From: Tridacna crocea
Taxonomy: Eukaryota; Mollusca; Bivalvia; Cardiida; Cardiidae
Length of the DNA stretch: 64,000 nt
NCBI GenBank assembly: GCA_943736015.1
Contig: OX031070.1
Coordinates: forward strand, 44,044,173 to 44,108,172
Direction of reading: 5' to 3'
Positions 1,631 to 63,101 of the stretch are shown here, in pieces. The notes under the pieces were generated by a model that saw nothing but the letters and a program-made list of their open reading frames with translations, had not been told where the DNA came from and did no database searches. Every line of letters starts with the position of its first letter. Within the stretch, counting starts at the first letter, position 1. The position numbers and the translations under genes are program-made.

Positions 1631-1846
1631 AATTTACCCTTTTCCAAACAATGCTGACTTTTAACACCCTTTGAAAACGTTGTGGGAAAAGGAGACAATG
1701 CTGGTTACCAGCATTGTCTCCTTTTCCAACAACGTTTTTTTACCCTATCAAAGAAAAATTGCATCATTTCAGTCATTAAGAAATTGCCATCCGCAAATGC
1801 TTTTAATTTGGATAGTTCTTAAAATTTTTTGTGTGGTACAGGGTTG
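1631..1846 (+). mobile_element. Family A MITE, variant hairpin
   Basis: Hairpin at 1672-1738. It differs from the family consensus at AACGTTG (consensus AACATTG) and GAGACAATGC (consensus GAGAAAATGC). Both changes appear on both arms. The terminal TTAA motifs are decayed. Confidence 0.85.
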
Positions 1847-2166: not shown

Positions 2167-2392
2167 ACCCATTACCTCACAATCCCTACTTTTGACACCC
2201 CTGAGAAAGAAGCCTTTTGAAAACACTGTGGGAAAAGAAGAAAATGCTGGTAACCAGCATTTTCTTCTTTTCCCACAGTGTTTTCTACCCTTCCCAGAAC
2301 AAATTTCTATTTTTGAATCACCTTTACTTTGTCGTCTGCAAATGCTATCAATTTGGACCAGTCTAAAATTTTCTCGTGTGGTAAAGAGTTAA
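2163..2392 (+). mobile_element. Family A MITE, abutting the previous copy
   Basis: TTAACCCATTACC at the left and GTAAAGAG-TTAA at the right. The hairpin at 2220-2283 has GAAGAAAA and CACTG in place of the usual GGAGAAAA and CATTG, mirrored on both arms. It shares TTAA 2163-2166 with the copy to its left, giving a head-to-head pair. Confidence 0.92.
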
Positions 2393-4406: not shown

Positions 4407-4635
4407 TTAACCCTTTACCCCATAAGGCACTTCTATGGTATCTGTAATTGGCCCTAAATAATAGCAAGGATGAAGCCATCTCTTATGTGTATATGACACC
4501 TTTTGATAGCAAAGAAAACATCGTGACAAAAGGTGAAATTGCTCGTCACGAGCAATTTCACCTTTTGTCACAATGTTTTCCAAAGGCTCTTACAAGCAAT
4601 GCGTAGAAATGAGTATCTATGGAGTAAAGGGTTAA
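4407..4635 (+). mobile_element. Family B MITE, full length
   Basis: TTAACCCTTTACCCCATAAG to GGAGTAAAGGG-TTAA. The hairpin core is GGTGAAATTGCTCGTCACGA and its complement. Arms read GTGACAAAAGG where the other B copies have GTGGCAAAAGG, changed on both sides. Other B copies are at 16014, 18643 and 32942. Confidence 0.9.
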
Positions 4636-5517: not shown

Positions 5518-5734
5518 TCAACCCTTCGGCTGCTAATTTAGACTCTATGACCTATTGCAGACAGTGTAGATCAAGATCAGACTGCACAGAACGTGCAGTC
5601 TGATCTTAGATCTACACTGTCCGATAAGGAAATATTTTGATAAAAAAATACTTTTCATTATTATAGCAAAAATCTGGCTTTTTACTTTGGGCCTGAAAAT
5701 TTCGTTTTATGTATTTTAGCAGGTCAAGGGTTAA
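5518..5734 (+). mobile_element. Family C MITE
   Basis: Hairpin at 5561-5626: ACAGTGTAGATCAAGATCAG, loop around CACAGAACGTG, then the complement. The element runs from TCAACCCTTCGGCTGC to AGGTCAAGGG-TTAA, so it also appears to have TTAA-type ends. Confidence 0.8.
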
Positions 5735-6309: not shown

Positions 6310-6540
6310 TCTACCACACAATTCTGATTTTTACAACCCTAAGGAAGTAGCCTTTTAAAAACCTTGTGGGAAAAGAAGAAAATGCTGGTAACCAGCATTT
6401 TCTTCTTTTTCCCACAAGGTTTTCTATACTTTTATAGACGATTACTGATCATCATTTCCGCAGTCACAAATAATTTGTCGCCTGCAAATGCTTTCAATTT
6501 GGACAAGTGTAAAATTTTATCGTTTGGTAAAGATTTAATT
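6310..6540 (+). mobile_element. Family A MITE, variant hairpin
   Basis: Hairpin 6358-6423 carries CCTTG and GAAGAAAA changes mirrored on both arms. Terminal TTAA decayed on the left; GGTAAAGATTTAA at the right. Confidence 0.88.
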
Positions 6541-6911: not shown

Positions 6912-7020
6912 GCTTAACGGACAGTGTAGATTCAAGATCAGACTGCACGTTCTGTGCAGTCTGATCTTGATCTACACTGTCCGCAAAAGGTCGGTGAGTC
7001 GATCTTAGCAGCTAACGTGC
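6912..7020 (-). mobile_element. Family C MITE, reverse orientation
   Basis: Hairpin 6918-6986 (GACAGTGTAGATTCAAGATC and complement), followed by the C-family arm GCAAAAGGTCGGTGAGTCG in the opposite orientation to 5518. Confidence 0.75.
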
Positions 7021-8239: not shown

Positions 8240-8460
8240 TTAACCCATTACAACACAATCCCTACTTTCGAAGCCCCTGAGAAAGAAGCCTTTAGAAAAT
8301 ATTGTGGGAAAAGGAGAAAATGCTGGTAACAGCATTTTCTCCTTTTCCCACAATGTTTTCTACCCTTCACAAAACAAATTTCCTATCACTTGTATTTTGT
8401 CTTCTGTAATTGCTTTCAATTTGGACCAGTCTAAAATATTGTCATTTGGTAATGGGTTAA
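8240..8460 (+). mobile_element. Family A MITE, full length
   Basis: TTAACCCATTACAACACAAT to GGTAATGGG-TTAA. Loop shortened to GCTGGTAACAGC. Confidence 0.92.
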
Positions 8461-9248: not shown

Positions 9249-9668
9249 GGCCTTCAACACGCGAAAAGGGGCATTCGGACGTTTACGTAAAAAGAAAACT
9301 TAAAATTCAATTCAAATAGTTTATTTAGCATATATAAGGCCACCGGCCCAAATTACAAAAGAAAAACCCTGAAATGATATATATTTAGAATGACTTTTAA
9401 ATAGTATATTTTTGTGTATAGCAAATACTCAATTAAATGTAGGCTTTTGCTGAGGACGTAAAATGTCATTCCGAATCAGCGTGGGTATCCCGCGTGGACT
9501 AATCCGAGATGACAGATTCCAGACTTACTTGCGCAAGTCTACTGTAGTACAAAATGTAATACGGATCGTAAAGTGCCGTCTCGGATCAGCCTGCGCGAAT
9601 TGCGCAGGCTGATCCGAGACGACACTTTACGCAAGTGACCGGATGCTCCATTTTCGCATGCTGCAAGC
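9249..9668 (+). mobile_element. Family D foldback element, interrupted
   Basis: Left end CAACACGCGAAAAGGGGCAT. About 240 bp of other sequence follows, then an excellent hairpin (9568-9630, GTGCCGTCTCGGATCAGCCT and complement) and the right end TTTTCGCATGCTGCAAGC. Confidence 0.75.
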
Positions 9669-10756: not shown

Positions 10757-11015
10757 TTGCATCCAGCGAAAAGGGGCATTCGGACATTTGCGTAAAGTGT
10801 CGTCTCGGATCAGCCTGCGCAGTCCGCGCAGGCTAATCCGAGACGGCACTTTACGACTACATTAGATTTTGTTCTTCGGTAGCCTTGCACAAAACAGAAA
10901 ATTACAGTAAAACGGAAAGTGTCGTTTCGGATCAGCCTGCACGGATAGCGCAGGCTGATCCGAAACAACACTTTACGCAAATGTCCGAATGCTTCTTTTC
11001 CCGTCTTGCAGGCCC
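10757..11015 (+). mobile_element. Family D foldback element, best copy
   Basis: Left end CTTGCATCCAGCGAAAAGGG. First hairpin 10797-10855 (GTGTCGTCTCGGATCAGCCT), a spacer with TTACGACTACATTAGATTTT, then a second hairpin 10917-10978 (GTGTCGTTTCGGATCAGCCT). Right end CTTTTCCCGTCTTGCAGGCC is the inverted left end. This copy defines the two-hairpin structure. Confidence 0.85.
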
Positions 11016-11462: not shown

Positions 11463-11695
11463 TTAACCCCTTACATCACAATCCATACTGTTGACGGCCG
11501 ACCATGTGTAAGAAGCCTTTAGAAAACATTGTGGAAAAAGGAGAAAATGCTGGTAACCAGCATTTTCTCCTTTTTCCACAATATTTTCTACCCTTTACAA
11601 AACAAATTTCAAATTTTCAGCCGCTTTTATTTTCTCGTCTGCAAATGCTTTCGATTTGGACAAGCCTAAAGTTTTGTCGTTTAGTAACGAGTTAA
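11463..11695 (+). mobile_element. Family A MITE, full length
   Basis: TTAACCCCTTACATCACAAT to TAACGAG-TTAA; hairpin 11523-11589 with mirrored GGAAAAAGGAG arms (consensus GGGAAAAGGAG). Confidence 0.92.
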
Positions 11696-13170: not shown

Positions 13171-13385
13171 AACCCTTAGGACGCTAAGCGCTACTCGCTG
13201 ACCTTTTGCGGACAGTGTAGATCAAGATCAGACTGCACAGAACGTGCAGTCTGATCTTGGCTCTGCACTGCCCGATAAGGAGACAACTTTTTTCCGAAGA
13301 TACCTTTGAAATAACAAAATTTGAGTTTTTCTACCAGCTTGAAAGTTTGATGTTTGTTTTTTGAGCAAGATAAAGGTTTATATAC
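13171..13385 (+). mobile_element. Family C MITE, near full length
   Basis: TTAACCCTTAGGACGCTAAG, hairpin 13204-13270, right arm with CCTTTGAAATAACAAAATTT and GCAAGATAAAGG-TTTA. Confidence 0.82.
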
Positions 13386-15451: not shown

Positions 15452-15752
15452 CTGGTACGGTGGCACAAAAGTGACATGGAAGATATATTTTATACTACGT
15501 GCGCACGCAGTAGCTAATACGTGCGCACGTAATAAGTAATACGTGCACACGCAGTAGTATTATTTGTGCACGCAGTAGCTAATACGTGCGCACGTAATAG
15601 TTTAGTTATTACGTGAGCGCGTATTAGCTACTGCGTGCGCACGTAATACTACTGCGTGTGCACGTATTACTTATTACGAGCGCACGTATTAGCTACTGCG
15701 TGCGCACGTAGTATAAAATATATCTTCCATGTCACTTTTGTGCCACCGTAAT
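15452..15752. repeat. 300-bp palindrome built from GCGCACGTA units
   Basis: Outer arms TACGGTGGCACAAAAGTGAC, ATGGAAGATATATTTTATAC and their complements at 15715-15752. The inner part is repeated alternating purine-pyrimidine blocks (TACGTGCGCACG, CAGTAGCTAATA). The centre is near 15605. Alternating GCGCACGT is Z-DNA-prone in principle. No coding frame. Confidence 0.9.
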
Positions 15753-15854: not shown

Positions 15855-16013
15855 AAGAGCGACTTAACGCTTTTTTGCAGCCAGTGTACTTTTAGATCAA
15901 GATCAGACTACACAGAGAAGGTCTGGATCTGCGCTATCTGATAAAGAGATAAATATTTATTATTTTCCTCCAAAAAATTAACTTTAGAATTGCAAGTTTA
16001 TGTTTGTTTTTTT
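15855..16013 (+). mobile_element. Family C MITE, diverged
   Basis: TTAACGCTTTTTTGCAGCCA, GATCAAGATCAGACTACACA and a shortened right hairpin arm (GGTCTGGATCTGCGCTATC). Confidence 0.6.
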
Positions 16014-16242
16014 TAACCTTTTACCCCATAAGGCATTTCTATGGTATCTCTAATTGACCCTAAATAACAGCAAGGATGAAACTGTTTCTTTATGCGTACA
16101 TGACACCTTTTGATAGCATAGAAAACATTGTGGCAAAAGGTGAAATTGCTCGTGACGAGCAATTTCACCTTTTGCCACAATGTTTTCCAAATGCTCCTAT
16201 AAGCAATGTGTAGAAATAAGTATCTATGGAGTAAAGGGTTAA
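16014..16242 (+). mobile_element. Family B MITE, full length
   Basis: TTAACCTTTTACCCCATAAG to GAGTAAAGGG-TTAA. Perfect hairpin 16120-16186 with AAATTGCTCGTGACGAGCAA core. Confidence 0.92.
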
Positions 16243-18642: not shown

Positions 18643-18878
18643 TTAACTCTTTACCCCGTATGGCATTTCTATGGTGTCTCTGATTGACTCTAAATAACAG
18701 CAAGGATGAAGCCGTTTCTTATGTGTATACAGTATATGACACCTTTTGATAGTGTAGAAAACATTGCGGCAAAAGGTGAAATTGCTCGTGACGAGCAATT
18801 TCACCTTTTGCCACAATGTCTTCCAAAGGCTCCTACAAGCAATGCGTAGAAATCAGTATCTATGGAGTAAAGGGTTAA
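18643..18878 (+). mobile_element. Family B MITE, full length
   Basis: TTAACTCTTTACCCCGTATG to GAGTAAAGGG-TTAA. Has a short insertion (TATACAGTATATGACACC) before the hairpin. Confidence 0.92.
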
Positions 18879-20384: not shown

Positions 20385-20510
20385 TTATCAAGTCAAACAA
20401 ATCTTAACTATATAGATTGGTCTAGTCTTCTGCTGCTCGAATCTTGCTATGCTATTTGATTGCATTGATTCAGTTTTATTTCGAATACATATGAATAGGA
20501 TGCACGTGAA

Positions 20511-20574
20511 AACATCGTGACAAAAGGAGACATTGCTCGTTACGAGCAATGTCTCCTTTTGCCTCGTTGTTTTC
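20511..20574. mobile_element. B-type hairpin without MITE flanks
   Basis: GAAAACATCGTGACAAAAGG, AGACATTGCTCGTTACGAGC and complement. GACATTGC is mirrored as GCAATGTC. Recognisable A or B outer arms are absent. Confidence 0.75.
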
Positions 20575-26500: not shown

Positions 26501-31569
<5,069 letters not shown>

Positions 31570-32373: not shown

Positions 32374-32602
32374 TTAACCCATTACAACACAATCCCTACT
32401 TTTGACGCCCCTGAGAAAGAAGCCTTTAGAAAACATTGTTGGAAAAGGGGAAAATGCTGGTAACCAGCATTTTCTCCTTTTCCCACAATGTTTTCTACCC
32501 TTCACAAAACAAATTTTAAATTTTCAGTCACTTTTATTTTGTCGTCTGCAAATGCTTTCGATTTGGACAAACCTAAAATTTTGTCGTTTGGTAATGAGTT
32601 AA
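32374..32602 (+). mobile_element. Family A MITE, full length
   Basis: TTAACCCATTACAACACAAT to GGTAATGAG-TTAA. Confidence 0.92.
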
Positions 32603-32830: not shown

Positions 32831-32945
32831 AGGAGAGTGTCAGGCGGCGCATTCAGCGCAGGCTGGCATGGTTACATTTTTGCACCAAGTTTGTAATTAT
32901 TCGGTGTGTTCGAGGACCAGTTTTCCTCGTGATTCAGCCGATTAA
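32830..32945 (-). mobile_element. Family J element, reverse, diverged
   Basis: GCAGGCTGGCATGGTTACAT, TTCGAGGACCAGTTTTCCTC, GTGATTCAGCCGATTAA. Confidence 0.55.
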
Positions 32946-33170
32946 CCCTTTATCCCATGGGACATTTCAATGGTATATCTAATTGACCCTAACTAACAGC
33001 AAGAATGAAGCCGTTTCTTATATGTATATGATACCTTTTGATTGTGTAGAAAACATTGTGGCAAAAGGTGAAATTGCTTGTCACGAGCAATTTCACCTTT
33101 TACCACAATGTTTTCCAAAGGCTCCTACAAGCAATGCGTAGAAATGAGTACCTATGGAGTAAAGGGTTAA
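32942..33170 (+). mobile_element. Family B MITE, full length
   Basis: TTAACCCTTTATCCCATGGG to GAGTAAAGGG-TTAA; hairpin 33048-33116 with two arm mismatches. Confidence 0.92.
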
Positions 33171-34499: not shown

Positions 34500-34736
34500 T
34501 TAACTCCTTACCAAACAATCACCGGTATTCACGACCCTAGAAAACAGAAGCCTTTTGAAAACATTGTGGGAAAAGGAGAAAATGCTGGTAACCAGCATTT
34601 TCTCCTTTTCCCACAATGTTTTCTTACCTGCTGAAAACATTTTTTTTTTTAAATTTTTTAATTAAGTTTATTTTGTCAATCTGCAAGTGCTTTCAATTTG
34701 GACCAGTCTAAAATTTTGTCGTTTGGGAAAGGGTTA
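34500..34736 (+). mobile_element. Family A MITE, full length
   Basis: TAACTCCTTACCAAACAATC to GGGAAAGGG-TTAA; perfect 66-bp hairpin 34557-34622. Confidence 0.92.
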
Positions 34737-35673: not shown

Positions 35674-35904
35674 CACTTTTTTCATAATTCTTATTACCCA
35701 CACAAAATGTGTGTGTGTTTTCATTCTGACGGGATGCAGTGGAGGTCGAGAAAAAAAATAAGAAAATCCCTAGTCAGCGGTTTTTCGTTTAATGTTTACA
35801 GTTAATGCCCCAACTTAAGATAGAATTACTTTGAAAAATAGAACGTATTCCTATTATAAAATAATCAATCTAGATCAATAAGTTCTTCAAGTAATTTGAT
35901 AAAA

Positions 35905-36130
35905 ATAGTTTACTAAACGACAAAATTATAAACTTTTCCAAATTAAAAGCATTTGCAGATGACAAAATAAATGTGACTGAAAAACTGTAATTTGATTTGG
36001 GAAGGATAGAAAACATTGTGGTAACAGGAGAAAATGCTGGTTTCCAGCATTTTCTCCTGTTACCACAATGTTTTCAAAAGGCTTCTTTCTCAGGGTCGTT
36101 CAAAGTAGGGATTGAGTGGGAAAGAGTTAA
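35905..36130 (-). mobile_element. Family A MITE with doubly mirrored hairpin variant
   Basis: Hairpin 36009-36076: left arm GTGGTAACAGGAGAAAATGC where the consensus is GTGGGAAAAGGAGAAAATGC. Both substitutions recur exactly complemented on the right arm. Right end GGGAAAGAG-TTAA shared with the next copy. Confidence 0.92.
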
Positions 36131-36324
36131 TACTTTACAAAAGGACAGAAATCCGGACTGGTCCAACCTGAAACATTTGCAGACGAGAAACAAACACGGA
36201 GGAAAACATTGTTGGGGGAAAAAGAAGAAAATACTGATAACCAGCATTTTCTCTTTTTCCCACGTTTTCAAACGCGTTCTTCCTCGATGTTGTTAAAAGT
36301 GAGAATTGTGTTGTAAGGGATTAA
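36127..36324 (-). mobile_element. Family A MITE, abutting
   Basis: TTAATACTTTACAAAAGGAC to GTAAGGGA-TTAA; more diverged than its neighbour despite touching it. Confidence 0.85.
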
Positions 36325-36481
36325 GTGCAAAATAGTCCATTATGTTCACGAACATAAGGCAGGGCTGGTTACAGAGGGGGAATTTTCTGTATTAACATGG
36401 CATGTTTTGGATTAAAGTCTATTACTGTCAGTTACGCTATGACTTCAGTCATTATGTAACAATATTGCTCTTGATTTGATT

Positions 36482-39367: not shown

Positions 39368-42300
39368 TTAGTCTTGATCGCCATTACGCCTACCAACCTG
39401 CTGACCCTCACCCCAATCAAAACCTCCAGGTCTTTCTTCTGGTAATGGATTGTAATCTGAATTTTCTTCGTGTGGGTCAAACACATATTTTCTGAAAGAG
39501 TTAAAGAATATGAATACACTCTATGAATACAATATACAACTTGTGAACAATTTTCTTAACCATGTAAACTGTAGGCAATATAAAGATGAGAAGAACTGAA
39601 AACTTTATTTCTGTTTCAACAGAAAGTGAAGAAATAGAGTTTATTCTATCAGCTTGTGGTTTATATTGGGAAATATTTGCCGAAAAAGGGAAAGGTATGC
39701 GAAAATAATGAGCGCCGTAAGGCACAAGTTGTTTTCGCAGACCTTTCCCTTTTGAGGAAAAAATTTCCCCATATTAATCACAAGCTGATGAAATAAATTA
39801 TGCATTATATTTTCTCTGATTATTTTGTCAAGGAATACCACTTTTAACACTTTTAACATTAGAAGAAAAAAAGTAGTTCCAGATTTTCGGCAGGAGGAAA
39901 ATATTCACTGTGACAGGGAAATAATTCCCCACAGCTTAAATTAGACAGTTCTTTACCCATAACATTTCTAAAAGAAGACACATGAAATAAAATATATTAT
40001 GTTAACAGTGACAAAATCCATATTAAAGCATTTCCTTTTGGTCATTCTCTTATTCTGTCTCTAAGATAATCATAAAATGCACTCTGATCTTACAGTCTTA
40101 TATTTTTCAAGTTATTCCAGCTAAAAGAGGACAAAAATAGCAGTACATGTAGTTTGGTCTTTCATACCAATCAAAACATCCTGATAGGTTAGTGCAACAC
40201 TATTCTAAGTGCCTGTACATTGTACAGGCACTTAGAATAGTGTTGCACTCACCTATCAATCCATCCTTTTTCTTATTTTGCAACTGGCTGCTGAACTCTT
40301 TACCACATGACAAAATTTTAGACTGGTCCAAATTGTCTTTACCAGACAACAAAATTTTAGATTGGTCCAAATTGAAAGCACTTGCAGATGACAAAATAAA
40401 CGCAACTCAAAACTTGAAATTTGTTCCCAGCAGGGTAGAAAACATTGTGGGAAAAGGAGAAAATGCTGGTAACCAGCATTTTCTCCTTTTCCCATGATGT
40501 TTTCCAAAGGCTTCTATCTCAGGGACGTAAAAACCAGGGATTGTTTGGGAAAAGGTTAACTCTTTACCAAACGACAAAATTTCAGATTGGTCCAAATTGA
40601 AAGCACTTGCAGATGACAAAATAAACACAACTCTAAATTTGAAATTTGTTTCCAGCAGGGTAGAAAAATTGTGGGAAAAGGAGAAAATGCTGGTAACCAG
40701 TATTTTCTCCTTTTCCCACAATGTTTTCAAAAGACTCCTAATTCAGGGTCGTTAAAAACTCCGAATTGTGTGGTAAAGAGTTAACCGAGAGATAACGCTT
40801 GTAATGTAGCATAAAACTATATCCGACGGTTACATGAAAAGAGAGGGAATACCACATTACATGTACTTACAGTATACTTGGAGTTTTCAATATTCTAAAT
40901 CCACCTTGTTGTTGAGGGAAAACATCTTCTAAGAAGTAATAAATATGACCTATTGCAATACCTGAAATTAAAGAACCAAAAAAAAAATAAACCTTTGCCA
41001 GATGACATAATATCAAACTTGTCTGATTTGGAAGCTATTAACCCATTACCACACAATCCCTACTTTTCAAGCCCCTGAGAAAGAAGCCTTTTGAAAACAC
41101 TGTGGGAAAAGGAGAAAATGCTGGTAACCAGCATTTTCTCCTTTTCCCACAGTGTTTTCTACCCTTTCCAGAACAAAGTTCAATTTTTCAGTCACCTTTA
41201 TTTAGTTGTCTGCAAATGCTTTCAATTTGGACCAGTCTAAAATTTTCTCGTGTGGTAAAGGGTTAAAGATGACACATTTAACATGGGTGGAAATGATGGA
41301 ACTTACCTGAGAAATGTAAGAAACCATTTTAGGGATAGGAGAAAATGCTCTTCACTTGCATTTTTCCTTTTCCCATTATGTTTTTTTTAAAAACCTGTTC
41401 TTATCAGGGTCATGAAATTTTTTACCAAATCATTGCCAGCACTAATGACACTGACGAAAAACACTCTTGAGAAAATGATCACCATCATTTTCTCCAGTTC
41501 CATTTTTTTTTTTTTCTCTGATCCATTACCACACAATCCCTGCTTTTCACGACCCTGAGAAAGAAGCCATTAGAAAACATTGTGGGAAAAGGAGAAATGC
41601 TACAGGTCTGCAAATGCTTTCAACTTGATTATGTCTACATTTTTGCTCTTTGGTAAAAAGATAAACTCAGGAAAGCAGTAATTACTTCCTGAGATTCATT
41701 TGTAAACAACTTTGAAAACATTTACGTAGAATCAGATTAACAAACATGGAACCAGATCTTGACCCCGAAATGTAGCTCAAATGATTGCATTTGCCTTTAA
41801 AATGGTAGAAAACATTGTGGGAAACAGAGACGCTGTGTTCTTTTCTGCTTTTTCCAAATGTTTTCAAAAGTCTTCTTTCATAAAACATGAGAATGTCGGG
41901 TAAATGGTTAATATAATCTTAACTTACCCATTAAATCAACCATAACAGAATTTCCTAACAGTAATGAGAAGGCAAGTAACACCCATGGCAGATAGGGCGC
42001 CTGAAAATTCATAAGCCCAAAAAAGTTCATCCTCACATATGGATTCCTTCTGCTCCAAACATAAACTAACATGATGGTGAATGCACTTCCTAAAAATACT
42101 AAATTTACAAACAATGCCGTGATCTGAAGAAACAGTTAAGGAAATGCCATGATTCTTGACTATTTTTCTTTTGGGAAAAGGGGGGGGGGGGGGGGGTTGC
42201 ACTTGTTGGATCAAGAAATGATGGACTTTATTTCTAATCTTCAGTAGCTATTAACCCTTTCCCAAACGTAGTGTTTTGGACTCTTCCAAAACGAAAGAGT

Positions 42301-45300
42301 TTGCAGACGACTATTTTAGATTTGGAGATAATGGCAGAAAGTTCTCAAAAAGGGTAGAAAACAGTGTGGGAAAAGAAGAGATTGCTCGTTACGAGCAATT
42401 TCTGCTTTTCCAACACTATTGTCAAAAGACTTTTACTGCAGACACATAAAAACCAGGGCTTGTTTGGGAAAGGGTTAATGTAGGAAATACTGAAATTCTA
42501 TCATCTGGCAAAAAAGATACAATATAAACTGGGATGACTATAAAACAGTATACTGCCTGGTCTGGTCCCTGGCTCTGGCAATTTCTTTCTCAGGATTCAT
42601 TAACACTTTACCACACAATCCCAACTTTTAACGACCCTGAGAAAGGAAGCCTTTGAAAACATTGTGGGAAAAGGAGAAAATGCTGGTAACCAGCATTTTC
42701 TCCTTTTCCCACAATGTTTTCTACCTTTTCCAATTCAAAATTCAATTTTTGATTCACATTCATTTTGTCATCTGCAAATGCTTTCAATTTGGACTAGTCC
42801 AAAATTTTGTCATCTGGTAAACAGGTCAAGTCATTGTGACAGGATTCAGTCCTCTCTCACCATTGTTTAGATGATGGTTATGTGGGAAAGCAGCTGGTGC
42901 AATGGAAAAAATACCATGAGGAGTATTGGTAGAGAAACTCCAGCTGTCCCTGGCTGTAAGGTAGAGCATCGGCCTCGTAACCAAAAGGTCCTCAGTTTGA
43001 TACCTGGGAGCGGGTGTCAACTTGGGATTTCTCATTGGCCCACACATTTGGCGCGAGTACTGGTGTAGTTCCCAGGAAGCAGATTCGAGAGAAGTTAATA
43101 AAAGTTGTAAGAACTTGTTTCTCAATCAATGTAAAATAAATATGTTTAAACTAAACTCCAGGAAAGCATGGATAGGTGTACTTGCTGCCACAAAATAAGT
43201 GAAATGTTGAAAACAGTGTTAAACAACAATCAATCTGAATCAATCAATCAATTAAATAGGATACAATCATTAAAGTCCCTCCAAACAGAAACATAAAAAA
43301 GAAGTCTGCTGTTTTCCCCCGAAATGACCCTTCCTCTAGCATACGACAGTACCGGTATGTGAAAATGAGGTTAAACAGGAAGTTGAAACCTATGGGACCA
43401 AAGTATAAAAAGTTTGTGACCAGTCTCCAGATCTATAAATAGAAGAGAATGAAAAATATATATATACAAGTAGTTGATTAATCTTTTTTTTTGAACAAAA
43501 TTCTTTACTTGTCAAAACTGATACCATTTGCAAGGAACAAATCAATTGTTTACCCTTTACCATACAATCCTGAGATTTAAAGACCCAGAGAAAAGAAGCC
43601 TTTTGAAAATATTATGGGGGAAAAAAAAGGAGAAAATACAGTTAACCAGCATTTTCGCCCTTTCCCACCACAATGTTCTCTGCTAATCAAATGATAGAAC
43701 TTATCTTTGAAAGGGTTGAAAACACATTTTCCGCAAGGCTTTCTACCATGTCAGAGACAGCTTCCACAATTTGAGCAACGCTGAATTTATAGTCTCCAGA
43801 TACTTTAACCCTTTACCCAAATTTTCAGTCACTTTTATTTTGTCGTCTGCAAATGCTTTCAATTTGGACCAGTCCAAAATATTGTTGTTTGGTAATGGGT
43901 TAAGTCTTAGACAAGTCTAAAGTTTAGACGTGTTGTACAGGTTTAACTCTTTACCAAAGAAAAAAATTTTAGAAGACTGCTCCAAACTGAAAGCAGCTGA
44001 AAATGAGAAAATAAATGTAACTTAACAATTCAAATTTGTTTCCGTCATTGTGGAAAAAGGAGGAAATGCTGGTAAGAAAAGGCTTCAATCTCAAGGTCTT
44101 AAAAACCAGGGATTGTTTTGTAAAAGTTTAGGGTGTAGACAGGTGAAGGACAAGTATGCACAAACCAGCTGGTTCTGTAGCAACTTGGCAGAGTGTAAAT
44201 GGATTTAGACTCCTAGGTTTGTCATTCCATCAGATTCAAACATATATACACATTCAGAGAACTTAGATGACTTAACCCTTTACCCCAAGACAAAAATTTC
44301 ATCTGTGATAAAAATAGATCATGGTCGTGATAAAAATAGAAGGTAAATATGAATACCTTCATGGTTCACTGGAAGATAATTCCACAACAAATCCCAGCAG
44401 GGTCATGAAAATTGCACATGCACAATTTTATATATACAGGAACTATGTGTGCATATTCAAGTTCAGTATGTGACAAACTGTTGGAGTATTGCTCCAAACA
44501 AATATGTGTCTACGGACAGACGTATTGACAGACAGCCATGGCGATTCGAGTATACCCCCTCCCCTTCGTTGTGCGGAGGTATAACTAAGATACTGTTCTA
44601 ATTGAGAGCAAAAAACCTATCCAGAGCTGTAAGTTAGCAACAGAAAATGAACTCACTTGGTAGTGTCTGATGATCAAGTCTGGGTTGAAGTAAATCTGAA
44701 ATGGGGTAATGACATCGAGTTGCTGCAATGTAAAGAAAAACCTTATTTTTATACATGTAGCACATGTAAAAAGTATGCTTCTTTAACCCACAACCAAACA
44801 ACAATATTAAAGGCTTATCCAAATTGAAAGCATTTGCAGAGGAAAAAATTCTAGTGACTGGTAATTTGACATTTGTTTTGTGAAGGGTAGAAAACATTAT
44901 GGGAAAAGGAGAAAATGCTGGTTACCAGCATTTTCTCCTTTTCCCACAATGTTTTCTAAAGACTTCGTTCTTAGGGCCGTCAAAAGTAGGGATTGTGTAG
45001 TAATGGGTTAAGTCAATATTAGACTGAGCAATGTGCTTTGAAAAAAGGGTTAAATACATCTTCCAAAAGATTTAACCCATTACCACACAATCCCTACTTT
45101 TGACGACCCTCGGAAAGAAGCCTTTAGAAAACTTTGTGCGAAAAGGAGAAAATGCTGGTAACCAGCATTTTCTCCTTTTCCCACAATGTTTTCTACTCTT
45201 CACAAAACACTTTTCAAATTTTCAGTCATTCTTATTTGTTGTCTGCTAATGCTTTCGATCTGGACAAGCCTAAAATATTGTGGTTTGGTAATGAGTTAAT

Positions 45301-50117: not shown

Positions 50118-50346
50118 TTAACTCTTTACCACACGAGAAAATTTTAGACTGGTCAAAATTGAAAGCATTTGCAGACGACAAAATAAAGTTGACTGAAAAA
50201 TTGAAATTTGTTCTGGGAAGGGTAGAAAACACTGTGGGAAAAGGAGAAAATACTGGCTACCAGCATTTTCTCCTTTTCCCACAGTGTTTTCAAAAGGCTT
50301 CTTTCTCAGGGGCGTCAAAAGTAGGGATTGTGTGGTAATGGGTTAA
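50118..50346 (-). mobile_element. Family A MITE, full length
   Basis: TTAACTCTTTACCACACGAG to GGTAATGGG-TTAA; hairpin 50225-50290 with mirrored CACTG/CAGTG feet. Confidence 0.93.
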
Positions 50347-52192: not shown

Positions 52193-55100
52193 ATGGCATC
52201 GAGCTATTCCTCATCTCCGAAAATGTATAATGACAACGATTTAGACGAACTAGAGAGCAATGGATTTTCGGACAAGGATTATTCTGACGAAGGTATGTAC
52301 GCGTTGATACTTCGGTCGAATTACGGAATTTCGTACTATGACCATTTCGTACCAGGCAGTGGCTAGAGATACGGTACCGTACCTCTAGCCTATATCAAAG
52401 AAATGGCTAGAGATACGGTACCGTACCTCTAGCCCCGGAGTCTCAAGATACGGTACCGTATCTTTAGTCATTCTTATGATATAGGCTAGAGGTACGGTAT
52501 TTTGTAGATACATGTAAGAAATTATAAATTTATTTCAGTTTTGATTATTATCGTTATTAGTATGTATTTGTAGTAATTGATCGGCATCAAAGGACAGAAT
52601 TAAACTCGTTGCTGTGTGCGAGTTTGCATCGATGCGCGAAAATAATAATTGCGCTGATTAGTTAGGTGAATTTAATTGCTTAAGATATAAGCGGATCTTA
52701 CATTATTTTAACTTTTGTTGTTCTTTAATTGATTATGGAAAGCGACATAATTAATCAATCACGGAAATTGATAATTAATCTATTACTCAATCACGGAAAT
52801 TTTTTCTGAAAGCACTTTCAAGCCAATTTTGTATCATACGGTCAAAATGGCTCATAGTATTCACGTCGGGAAGAAATTTGAAGATTTTCAAACATTTAAA
52901 AGCGCAACAGAGTGCTATCAAAGTGCAGAAAGTGTGCAGTTTTACAAGAGGGATTCTAGGACTATACAAAAAGCCCAGCCGCGCGTACAAACAAAAATAA
53001 AAGAAAGGATAAAGTATTACTGGATATCGCTGTACTGTATTCATTGTGGCAAGAATTTCAAAGCCAGAGGGACAGGAGTGAGAGAACAAAGGTTATCTAT
53101 CTGTCTGTCTGTCTGTCTGTCTACCATCCATTTATACTTATTAAGTTATTTTATCTTGGGTTGGGAGCGGTGGATAGAGTTGAGCGTTTAGGTTCGGGTC
53201 TGGTAAGCACGATTCGAACTGAAATTTGATGTGGGCTTTTTCTTATGTATAGTAGAAGCAGAATTTTACGGCATAAATTATACATAACTATTTAGGGCAA
53301 ACATTAAGGCCACAAAATAATGTGAACAATGGGTTCTTTTAACCAGTTCTCCGCACAATATTCTTTCTAAGCCACTGGCTGCTTTCCCACATAACTATCG
53401 TCGAAACATTGGACAGCAGTGAGAGAGAAATGAATCCTGTTGCAATGACTGTCATCAATCCTCGGAGAGTTAATTGGCCGAGCCGTGGATCGAACGGCGA
53501 TCTCCTGTTCTCAGTTACGGAACGCTATACTGACTGAGCTATGGGGCTATGCCTGCACATTGTTGTAAATAAATTTAGGAATTTGATAGAATGAATGGTG
53601 TTTAACGCCGTTTTCAACAGTATTTCAGTACTTCTGCATCGGCCAGTGCACCTATTCATGCTTTCCTCGAGTTTTTATAACCAGTACTCGGCACAATATT
53701 CTTTCTAAGCCACTGACTGCTTTCTTACATGCAGTACAAGTCGTTTGAAAACACTGTAGGAAAAAGAGAAAATGCTAATTTCTCATTTTCCAACAGTGTT
53801 TTCTACCCTTTTGGATGACCATTTTCCACCATTTTTCATCAAAATTTAAATTGTTTACAAATTCTTTGAGTGTAAAATTTGTCTTTCGAGAAAGGGTTAA
53901 GCAGGGATAATACATATGTTATATAGAATCCCTGGTTAAGTAATCAAGTTCACCTAATAATCAACGCAATTATTATTTTCGCTCTTCAGTGCACATTCGC
54001 ACACTGTGCACAACTTGATGAGTTTCTGTCCTTTGATGCCGATCAATTACTACAAATACATACTAATAACGATAATAATCAAAACTGAAGTAAATTTATA
54101 ATTTCTTACATGTATCTACAAAATACCGTACCTCTAGCCTATATCATAAGAATGACTAAAGGTACGGTACCGTATCTTTAGTCTCCGGGGCTAGAGGTAC
54201 GGTACCGTATCTCTAGCCATTTCTTTGATATAGGCTAGAGGTACGGTACCGTATCTCTAGCCACTGCCTTCGTACCAGTCACTTCATACCATAATTTGAA
54301 CAATATTCATACCACATTTATACCATTTCGTACCCTAATTCTATCGCTTTGCACCATTATTGATCCATTTTGTACCATATTTCTCGGACCTACGACAAAG
54401 TATGGAAAGTGCCTATTATGACGATTTTGAAAGAAGAAAAACAATCAAAAAGCATTTTCCTTGAGCTCTTGAATTGTCAACATTTTGAAATAAATGAGGT
54501 TTTAATGTAATATAAAATAGGTAAGCACAATCTGGAAATGACCCAATAAGGACAGCATTACATTTTATGTTTTAGGTATTTAATTTGTTTTAGCCTGGGT
54601 ATTGGCATGAGCATCACCTTCAGTCTGAAGGTGTCTGCTCCGATGCTAGTTTTGTGACTGGTCTTTGCATTCAAGATAGCATCAGAGCAGACACCTTCAG
54701 ACTGAAGGTACATTAACATGTGAGCCTCACCTTGGGCTTCAAGCAAGTATTGGAATAAAACCATTCCAAATGTGCATTTGGAGTGTTCTTTTGTGTGTGG
54801 GCAAAGAAACTGGGCATGACTTCTTTTAACAGACTACATTATTTGTGGATTCATTTTGAATTTTGCAGGTGTAATAACGGCTTCTTAAAATATTGCCACA
54901 ATGTTTTCATCAGTCTGATTTATCAGCCCTGAGGGTTGTTGAAACTCTGGAATGTGTGATAATTGGTTGATATGAGAATAAATTTCTATTTGAAGATACA
55001 GAAGATGCAAGTGAAACTGACGCTGCCAAGCAAGAAACACAGTACACAGAGATTAAAGAACAGTAAAATTTTAGTTTTCATACTTTTTGGCTCCACCTAT

Positions 55101-58100: not shown

Positions 58101-61100
58101 GGAGAAAAAGCTGCTTGCCAGCATTTTCTCTTTTTCCCAGAATGTTTTCAAAAGACCTCCTCTTCTGGATTCTCTATACTCAAGACTGTTTGATGGAGTG
58201 TAAATAAATCTAGATTATTGATGTATTTTACATGCAGGTTTTCAAAGATGTCTGGTACAAAGTAGGTCTAAACCAAATTCTTGGAACTCTTGTGTGTATT
58301 TCACGGTTTGAGCCCATAATTTTAAAGTTGAAGGGGTAAAAATGCTTTCTAGAAATGTTAATTCTTTGGTACACAAAACCCAAATTTTAACGACCATGAG
58401 GTGAGAAAACTTTCAAAATATAGTGGGTAAAGCAGAAAATGCTGGAAACTAGCCCTTTCTCCTAGTCCTTGTTAGTTTTCTACTCTTTCAAAAATAATTT
58501 TCCCCTTTTGAGCCACTTACAATTTGTTGTATGGAAATACTCAACAATCAGAAAAGTTCAACATTTTTATGGTAAGGTAATAGGTTGCAAAATATGTAAA
58601 TAAAGTTTTGCCATTTTCAGGAGAAAAAGATCGACTTGAAGGAGAGTATTATATCTGACTTGGAAGAGAAGAAAAGAAGTATAGAGTTGGAGAGAAGTCA
58701 ACTGGAGCTGACAGGAGGTCATTCAAACTTTCTTTTGTCCGCATCTCTTGGTATGTATTCTACCCTCTTCATGCACTTGTTTGCTAGGTTGCCGCAAAGG
58801 TTTTTTTCAGTTCGATTGACTGTTTGCTTAATGACAAAAAAAAAAAAATTTTCATACCCATTGGAAAAAAATTATATATAACAGACACTGAGAATGTTTT
58901 ATTTTGTTAAATGATTTAAATGTAGTTTGATTAACGTAATCACAGTAATTTTGACGAGACTCCTAGGTGACTGCTTTGGAGTAGATTTATTTTTGATCCA
59001 ATATTTCATGAAGGATGACAGGTATGTTATACTCAGTCATTTGTATCCATTATTTCCAATGATTGATTACATATCTGTAGCCTAGTACCTTCATAGTTTT
59101 TTTTTTTCTTTAAAATATGTATGTTACGTATTAAATTACTATATGGTAGAATGCTGTATTTCTTTTTTCATTATTCTGACAGACACAATTGAAATAAAGC
59201 CAATGTCCACCAGAAAACTTAGACGGCGGCCAAATGACCCGGTGCCTATACCAGAGAAACGACGAAAACCATCACCAGATATCCTTGTCTTTGAATTTAT
59301 GTCATACTAATGGGTTGTGTTGCCATTGTTAATTACTAGTATATCAATTATTTCTTTATCATTATGGTTAGCGTATCTAACCTTGTTTTGCCTGATGTTT
59401 TTCAACCAGTACCATTTACAGTTGTTTCAGGCACGCTATAGTTATGACTGGTACATACCGGTATATTCTCTATCACTTGACAAAGTCTCAAACTGTCCAA
59501 AAGAATAGATCAAAATTAGACTTCACATCATACACAGTCTCATCTTGATCTACTTTGTCAGAAAAAGCACTTTATTTTTCCCTTATCCCTTACTTTAAGG
59601 GTTAAAACAGTAAGAGGCTGAAACATTATACATGACTGAATGCCATTTTAGGCCATTTTCAGTGTTATTTCAGTCATATCACATTGACAGCTCACATGTT
59701 CGTATATGTCTTCGTTTTCACTAGAAATAGCCTCAAATAGGCAAGGGCTTTGATTGACTTGCCTAGGAACATTTCCATGGAAAACTAAGTGCTTGCACTG
59801 AGGATTGAAACTGGGCTTTCAGGTTTGACAAGCTATACTGTACCACAGAACTGTGTAGGAGCTAGAAACTTTGTTTTTGTGAAATTTTGCTTATTAATTC
59901 TGAAACTAGAAATCAAAGTTTTGAAATCCTTGACTTTGTTGTACCTCAAATTAATTTTTTCCTGGAGGAGAATGAAGTAATGGATGACCTAAGGATCATT
60001 AACAAGGTCAGCGGAAAGCCACTAGGGCGTAAACCAATACCAGCCATTAGCACTGTCGACATAATCATGGAGGTCAAGATAGATGATGGGAGACTTTATT
60101 ATGATAAAAGATGGTAAGTTTATAATTCTTTGTTTGTTTTTCATAAAATTAAAAGGAATTCGCTTTTCCAAACGGCAAAATTGCAAACTTAAGGGGATAC
60201 AGAACAGCAAGTGATCTTGACTCACTGCATTCATGCAGAAGGCAGCTCTTTACCAAACGACAATATTTTAGACTGGTCCATATTGAAAGCATTTGCAGAC
60301 GACAAAATAAAAGTGACTGAAAATTTGAATTTGTTTCGTGAAGGGTAGAAAACACTGTGGGAAATGGAGAAAATGCTGGTTACCAGCATTTTCTCCTTTT
60401 CCCATAGTGTTTTCCAAAGGCTTCTTTCTCAGGGGCGTTAAAAGTAGGGATTGTGTAGTAATGGGTTAATTCTTTGTTTGTTTCTCATAAAATTAAAAGG
60501 AATTCTCTAACTCCTTATGATACCCCCGCAAAACAAATGTTTTCGGGGGGTATACTGGAATCAGCCCGTCTGTCTGCGCATCCGTCCGTCCGTCCATGTG
60601 TCTGTCTGTGCACAAAATACTAGTAATTTTGTGTCACGTACTCTTCCTACTGTTTTCCTTCAGTTGTATTGAAATTTTGCACATATACTGATCATAAATT
60701 GAAGATTTGCAAGACACAATTTTCAAGTGTCAACTCTTCCTGTTTGAGGTATTATCCCCCCCTTGAACTTGACACTTTTTTCTTTCAAAGCGCTGGCGGA
60801 GGTATTAAGTCACATTCAGTGACAGCTCTAGTTTCAAAAGGCTTAAACAGTGAAGTGCTGGATCTAACTTAACTCTTTACCAAATGATAACATTTTAGAC
60901 TTGTCCAAATTGAAAGCATTTGCAGACAACAAAATAAATGTGAAAAAAAAAACTGACTTTAGAAGTGCAGAAAACCTTGTTGGAAAAGGAGAAAATGCTG
61001 GTTACCCTTTCCCAAACGTCAAATTTTTGGACTAGACCAAATTGAAAGCATTTGCAGATGACAATTCAACTCTTGTTGAAAAGATGATTTCTGTCTATGA

Positions 61101-62872: not shown

Positions 62873-63101
62873 TTAACCCATTACCACACAATCCCTACGT
62901 TTGATGCCCCTGAGAAAAAAGCCTGTAGAAAACATTGTGGGAAAAGGAGAAAATGCTGGTAACCAGCATTTTCTCCTTTTCCCACAATGTTTTCTACTCT
63001 TCACAAAACAAATTTCAAATTTGCAATCACTTTTATTTTGTCGTCTGCAAATGCTTTCAATTTGGATCAGTCTAAAATATTGTCGTATGGTAATGGGTTA
63101 G
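62873..63101 (+). mobile_element. Family A MITE, full length, in the probable SUDS3 3' UTR
   Basis: TTAACCCATTACCACACAAT to GGTAATGGG-TTAG; perfect 66-bp hairpin 62929-62994. It lies between the stop codon (62572) and the first AATAAA (63232). Confidence 0.92.

Follow-up and report, generated by a model that had tools for sequence, protein, structure and literature searches.

The hairpin repeats of Tridacna crocea described here are, judged from their ends and layout, non-autonomous MITEs of the piggyBac type, the conserved internal region of which is a 67-bp palindrome. The halves of this palindrome change together between lineages, whereas single copies degenerate mostly in one half or the other and not in both; pairing therefore looks maintained in the spreading copies rather than repaired in each insertion. 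We consider it probable that the core is kept in spreading lineages by a role in transposition, that insertions decay arm by arm and that template switching makes the mirrored changes, i.e., those found on both arms. All counts refer to one stretch of DNA (the window; 64 kb, 37% GC), which has the appearance of animal non-coding DNA, includes some repeats similar to those of bivalves, contains four open reading frames (ORFs) of at least 120 codons and yielded no tRNA.

The consensus of family A was derived from the 39 best full-length copies and has a length of 229 bp, comprising 107 bp of left outer sequence, the palindrome (33 + 1 + 33 = 67 bp) and 55 bp of right outer sequence. It starts with TTAA-CTCTTTACCA and finishes with TGGTAAAGGG-TTAA; the tips read CYCTTTACC at one end and GGTAAAGGG at the other, with TTAA outside. 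In the alignment of the 39 copies the TTAAs are the limit of sequence conservation. They are present on the left in 27/39, on the right in 30/39 and at both ends in 23/39 copies, and at both ends in all four aligned copies of family B. With TTAA excluded, the terminal inverted repeat measures about 14 bp with one mismatch in B and about 15 bp with three mismatches (thus imperfect) in A, within the 12-19 bp of piggyBac-type MITEs. The tip motif of this type has been given as CC[C/T]T at both ends (PMC2872659), and CCCAT has also been named as a piggyBac tip (PMC10813416). The consensus of B carries CCCT at both ends. Regarding A, the commonest forms listed were CCCT (10/39), CTCT (8/39) and CCCA (4/39) for the left tip and TGGG (14/39), AGGG (8/39) and AGAG (7/39) for the right tip, the others being varied. 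The consensus layout, its TTAA ends and the limit of conservation together give the anatomy of a piggyBac-type MITE and not that of a free hairpin repeat. A Pfam scan of the four window ORFs of at least 120 aa found no transposase (one match, ZSWIM3_N); ends of the piggyBac type would suffice for transposition. An assignment as Kolobok MITEs was rejected: Kolobok and T2-MITE elements are likewise MITEs with a TTAA target site, but the Kolobok tips described begin with RR (AGGRR in T2-MITE), and the consensus here with CCC or CTC (PMC6004289).

A profile search seeded with the focal locus yielded 94 non-redundant hits, from which 69 hairpins (at most 6 gaps) and, more strictly, 58 hairpins (47 of type A and 11 B-like; no more than 3 gaps, 1 inserted base and 20 differences) were obtained. 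Full A copies (n = 39) were defined by a score of at least 130 bits, model ends at or below 10 and at or above 190, and at most 3 hairpin gaps. The consensus of B was built from 4 of the 11 B-like copies. Groups of A copies were hand-picked from a weakly supported tree of the flanks (5 of 36 inner branches starred) and included 26/39 copies for rates of private changes and 29/39 for the comparison of consensuses; copy 46799, which stands beside the T6 group on the tree, and four rows under the fork that holds most A centres were left out. The elements and hairpins referred to below are the following (hairpin changes numbered along the arm).

35902..36130, + strand: focal family-A element, left TTAA degraded, right TTAA at 36127-36130, delimited by sequence and by alignment with 38 other full copies
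36009..36075, + strand: focal palindromic core, mirrored G14T and A17C 3 bp apart, 32/33 pairs, only the innermost pair beside the centre unpaired
36156..36325, + strand: damaged second A copy adjoining the focal one, hairpin with a 3-nt gap and 4 inserted bases
34557..34623, - strand: hairpin matching the A consensus in full, 33/33 pairs, flanks differing by 18.8%
42655..42721, - strand: second hairpin identical to the A consensus
1673..1739, - strand: A hairpin, mirrored A7G and A24C, centre A
2219..2285, - strand: A hairpin, mirrored T8C and G20A, arms without mismatch
About 6358..6424 (approximate ends), - strand: A hairpin, mirrored A7C and G20A, one inserted base
11522..11588, - strand: A hairpin, mirrored G14A, with TA...TA extension (11520-11590)
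41093..41159, - strand: A hairpin, member of the T8C group, 33/33 pairs
50225..50291, + strand: A hairpin of the T8C group
60348..60414, + strand: A hairpin, T8C on both arms, placed by the flank tree outside the T8C group of four copies
16013..16242, + strand: family-B element, TTAA at both ends, hairpin at 16121-16187 with all pairs formed
32942..33170, + strand: family-B element, hairpin at 33049-33115, centre C
18643..18878, + strand: family-B element, hairpin at 18757-18823
4407..4635 (right end from the alignment), + strand: family-B element, hairpin at 4514-4580, mirrored G13A, centre C, one unpaired position
20508..20574, + strand: B-like hairpin, mirrored T9C and A24C, three unpaired positions
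42357..42423, + strand: copy 42279, B-like inner hairpin in family-A flanks, mirrored T8G, A26T and G31C, five arm mismatches
26874..27064, + strand: two 94-bp units in tandem, each with a B-like hairpin, differences within the hairpins single-arm (by eye)

The original prediction, made from the letters of the window, had named mirrored pairs in four of these A hairpins (36009-36075, 1673-1739, 2219-2285 and about 6358-6424), and all of them (G14T and A17C; A7G and A24C; T8C and G20A; A7C and G20A, respectively) exist. Regarding the B-type arms at 4514-4580 and 20508-20574, the mirrored changes were found as proposed, along with one and three unpaired positions, respectively. Some hairpins are lengthened by TA...TA beside the core (8293-8362, 11520-11590, 29198-29268, 32427-32497, 44888-44958, 45125-45195 and 62925-62997). 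All but one of the seven are members of the T6 group, the consensus of which has a fixed T in the right flank, an extension of the palindrome at the lineage level. A coding function was considered and rejected; the right part of the focal element is stop-free over 43 codons, and the one other stretch tried (other strand, frame) contains stops.

Identical changes on both arms occupied 17 hairpin cells in the 39 A copies, whereas 3.0 were expected when right arms were dealt among copies (0 of 3000 shuffles reached the observed count), which confirms the mirrored substitutions noted earlier. When the arms were slid by 1-3 columns, 3-7 both-arm differences were obtained, compared with 21 in register. 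A separate count of pairs in 35 of the 39 hairpins (two were without an ungapped string, and one sequence common to three copies was entered once) gave 15 cells changed on both sides against 3.3 expected (0/500). The excess persisted without copy 42279 (14 mirrored, 2.8 expected), in the 35 hairpins of low divergence (13 and 2.1) and in the 31 that were left after removal of the T8C group (9 and 1.4). The same change on both arms thus occurs beyond chance, as an origin by template switching implies. It is extremely improbable that chance, mutational hotspots or CpG decay struck both arms independently. Positions 6, 8, 10 and 14 do vary in many copies, yet the arm shuffles preserve such hotspots and still yield 3.0 instead of 17. 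As to CpG decay, the mirrored A7G in 1673-1739 creates a CpG, so that the state of most copies could at this site be the product of decay, but the consensus core is devoid of CpG and transversions make up 8 of the 17 mirrored pairs.

Most changes within copies are nevertheless unpaired: 99-100 single-arm changed letters stand against the 34 letters of the 17 mirrored pairs, and at least one arm mismatch was present in 34/39 A copies, which contradicts the earlier statement that the arms usually match within a copy. Single-arm changes numbered 35 on the left and 56 on the right arm, an imbalance that weighs against our main reading. Six mirrored variants were private to one copy, compared with 0.31 expected (four and 0.25, respectively, without copy 42279); an example is A17C beside G14T in the focal copy. 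Because the 39 copies are sampled from a total that is probably very large, a variant confined to one copy in this sample may be that of a founder elsewhere. The four to six private changes also imply that a part of the mirrored changes may have arisen in place, which again weighs against the main reading. These private variants favour a neutral homogenisation of the arms in place, i.e., template switching or cruciform-mediated conversion in each insertion, with a hairpin that has no role in spreading. Also in its favour are the focal copy, in which two mirrored changes lie 3 bp apart and a single mismatch (the innermost pair) is left, and the flank tree, which places all mirrored changes other than T8C on single terminal branches. 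The mismatches kept in 34/39 copies argue against it, as do the comparisons between groups that follow, and we regard it as unlikely.

Mean divergence among the 39 A copies was 17.6% in the flanks and 5.2% in the hairpin; the outer arms are thus more diverged, as had been claimed. That they are unpaired is true over most of their length, but not for the roughly 15 imperfect bp at the tips. When the consensuses of five A groups (29/39 copies) were compared with that of the family, the flanks differed in 77 of 770 cells (6, 10, 15, 11 and 35 of 154 positions per group, the 35 stemming from a group of three copies), whereas only 2 of 330 letters differed in the hairpin arms, which represent one mirrored pair, T8C, in one group. 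Arm-to-arm copying spreads changes as often as it erases them and cannot by itself lower the total of changes in the hairpin below that of the flanks, which counts against homogenisation in place as the cause of this difference. Within its group of four copies, T8C is present on both arms in three and on one arm in the fourth; it is also mirrored in two copies outside. Since T8C is mirrored outside the group and requires at least four changes on the weak flank tree, it is not a clean marker of a single founder.

At the level of single copies, the 21 closest pairs of copies showed 7 mirrored positions and 73 single-arm differences. The mirrored share by flank distance (0.087, 0.169, 0.113 and 0.130) did not rise steadily, which weighs against the main reading. 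In the tightest group (four copies), private changes affected 9/264 hairpin and 21/616 flank positions (ratio 1.0). In three wider groups the ratio of private changes in hairpin to those in flanks was 0.46, 0.52 and 0.47 (Fisher p 0.002, 0.007 and 0.02); this deficit, too, weighs against the main reading and favours homogenisation in place. It can be due to unsampled history of the flank lineages or to maintenance or protection after insertion. Rates of singletons are alike in hairpin and flanks (1.5-2.1%). We do not claim that hairpin and flanks mutated at equal rates once inserted, given the ratios of about 0.5 in the three wider groups despite similar singletons and of 1.0 in the tightest one. 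Conversion within copies after insertion, as previously suggested, is not needed to explain the data and is at most minor, most changes being unpaired and only 7 positions against 73 being mirrored in the closest pairs; an origin in place may apply to the four to six private changes. The evidence regarding subfamilies falls between the outcomes that had been envisaged: some mirrored variants mark lineages, and four to six are private in the window (0.25-0.31 expected).

Family B has TTAA ends and the same layout as A (107 + 67 + 55 bp), and its hairpin is 88% identical to that of A. Eight arm letters differ between the two hairpins, which constitute four mirrored pairs (G14C, A21T, A26T and G31C), none of them broken. 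The view that mirrored variants founded subfamilies accordingly fits these four A/B pairs, but T8C only in part (three of four copies in the group, two copies outside). All four A/B differences (positions 14, 21, 26 and 31) are complement swaps, G-C to C-G or A-T to T-A; among the A copies, such swaps account for 24 of the 99 changes on single arms and for 2 of the 17 mirrored pairs. The interior of the left outer part is 38.7% identical between A and B in register, compared with 17.6-31.9% at 16 other offsets and up to 35.2% in reversed or complemented controls. The right outer interior (31 bp) gave 38.7% in register and 42.9% at another offset and thus gave no signal in register; with gaps allowed, the interiors aligned no better than shuffled sequences did (403 and 131 of 1000). 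With the tips included, the score of the outer parts was reached by 7 (left) and 0 (right) of 1000 shuffles. According to these alignments, tips and core are common to A and B, and the homology of the remaining outer sequence is weak at most. The outer parts of B may be those of A after long drift, or a different filling of equal length. The comparisons of families and of groups taken together indicate that the core is conserved in sequence and pairing between lineages and the outer sequence is not.

Relative to the flanks, the centre base of the palindrome is T in 30, A in 8 and C in 1 of the 39 A copies, and the weakly supported flank tree requires at least five A/T changes; the centre is G or C in the four strict B copies. 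Flips of the centre to its complement are what an inversion of the spacer by template switching would give, and they can be counted in favour of homogenisation in place. On the other side, six of the eight A centres stand under one weakly supported fork of 12 copies, mixed with six T centres, so that the centre represents few events.

Amplification through a hairpin intermediate has been proposed for some MITEs. In a self-primed replication through a foldback or hairpin of DNA, each round would use one arm to rewrite the other; this would yield mirrored founders and flipped centres in one step, and the strand of 36009-36075 is predicted to fold very stably as DNA (-37 kcal/mol, z -16). The outer 107 and 55 bp are, however, unpaired save for the tips and would therefore not be copied by a foldback of the whole element, whereas tips and TTAA sites fit piggyBac transposition; such an intermediate appears improbable, and a special amplification of this kind is not needed. 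An amplification mechanism that acts on the hairpin itself, as suggested earlier, may exist, but ends of the piggyBac type would do without it. Selection in source copies on an RNA hairpin with a miRNA- or siRNA-like product would agree with the long perfect hairpin and with mirrored changes between lineages. Single-arm changes that keep a G-U pair showed no clear preference for a strand, though (29 on the + and 21 on the - strand), and no Rfam family reached its gathering score within the window, and we consider selection of this kind highly improbable. A preferential breakage at the palindrome was rejected, 21 of 56 internal fragment ends lying in hairpin columns (67 of 204 model columns), which is no enrichment.

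In the reading that we prefer, maintenance of the core in spreading lineages, the elements would move as piggyBac MITEs and hairpins, once inserted, would decay mainly through ordinary point mutation. The core would be a putative cis-acting element, either a dyad-symmetric protein site or a hairpin/cruciform, that makes good transposition substrates, and copies with a well-paired core would found new subfamilies. If the core matters for spreading in this manner, lineages are expected to keep its sequence and pairing. A mirrored change would usually be made in one step, by a template switch in an imperfect palindrome that copies one arm onto the other; a copy with such a change could become a founder, the change being inherited by its lineage. 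A more specific version, which we put forward tentatively, is that the core may be a selected transposition enhancer, that template switching in it may repeatedly turn one-arm into two-arm mutations, that lineages may be born with new, perfectly paired cores and that the sequence between core and tip may drift or be replaced at fixed spacing. It is made less likely by the outer parts, which are alike in register on the left side only.

The window contains further palindromic repeats. A second, unrelated family with the stem CGTAAAGTGYCGTCTCGGATCAGCCTGCGC is found at 9457-9514, 9567-9653, 10791-10877 and 10913-10999, and the copy at 10913 shows a mirrored C-to-T change (by eye); mirrored changes may thus not be peculiar to the piggyBac-type family. 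A third, small family with the stem AAGATCAGACTGCAC (5573-5607, 6932-6970 and 13223-13259) has the loop AGAAC in two copies and its reverse complement GTTCT in one, which may be mere orientation. The region 15478-15728 is a near-perfect palindrome of 251 bp (arms of at least 120 bp, 6 mismatches) with tandem units of the TACGTGCGCACGTAGTAGCTAA type. An inverted repeat of about 335 bp (52354-52683 and 53936-54269, 92% identical), each arm of which contains an imperfect palindrome of 125 bp, encloses the ORF with the ZSWIM3_N match (52829-53191); the whole is perhaps a larger mobile element.

Judged by description, the closest known kind of element is represented by the CMITEs of the coral Acropora, piggyBac MITEs with a conserved internal region of 75 bp for which a role in transposition was suggested (PMC2872659). 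Both share the TTAA duplication, piggyBac-like tips, tandem copies and an internal region that is more conserved than the ends and shared across families; the CMITEs are shorter (about 100 bp vs 229 bp), and the very tips are shared between A and B here, unlike in CMITEs (PMC2872659). The terms 'palindrom', 'hairpin' and 'secondary structure' are absent from the main text on CMITEs, and the cores were compared by description only (PMC2872659). Template switching has been proposed to create and keep mirrored changes in the stems of RNA genes (PMC8794818), and to homogenise arms and invert spacers in coding genes of yeast (PMC8604942). The present hairpins resemble these cases of quasi-palindrome correction in their mirrored stem changes and may share the homogenised arms and inverted spacers, but in the elements of the window such changes also distinguish lineages of a transposon, and the majority of within-copy changes are unpaired (PMC8794818, PMC8604942).

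That the inside of a piggyBac MITE can be more conserved than its outer parts is already known; new, as far as searched, is the nature of the conserved region, a palindrome whose letters change in pairs from lineage to lineage. Angel and other fish MITEs reportedly have a foldback structure, for which amplification as hairpins has been proposed; unlike in these, the outer parts are unpaired here and the tips resemble those of piggyBac. Among the matches listed by the literature search (titles and openings of abstracts, with few subscription journals covered), none described mirrored substitutions in a MITE, and literature queries with parts of the core or with its chance translation gave no match. 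Collections of viruses, prokaryotes, phages and plasmids yielded no relatives of core or element (exact patterns of the core in viral and genome contigs, blastn of the element against phages and plasmids; a protein-style query gave 13 pattern matches, 0 confirmed). This search, restricted to those collections, is silent on the distribution in animals.

The finding bears on the odd conservation of the internal regions of some piggyBac MITEs, for which no reason was known (PMC2872659). Paired change between lineages, as opposed to arm-wise decay in copies, is of use in distinguishing selection that acts while lineages spread from repair at the site of insertion. With dozens of copies in 64 kb and the flanks as a yardstick, the family is a natural assay for template switching at palindromes, and the copy number opens the part played by the core in transposition to direct tests. 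Should the core of the coral CMITEs prove to be a palindrome of this type as well, the design put forward tentatively above would be widespread among piggyBac MITEs of animals.
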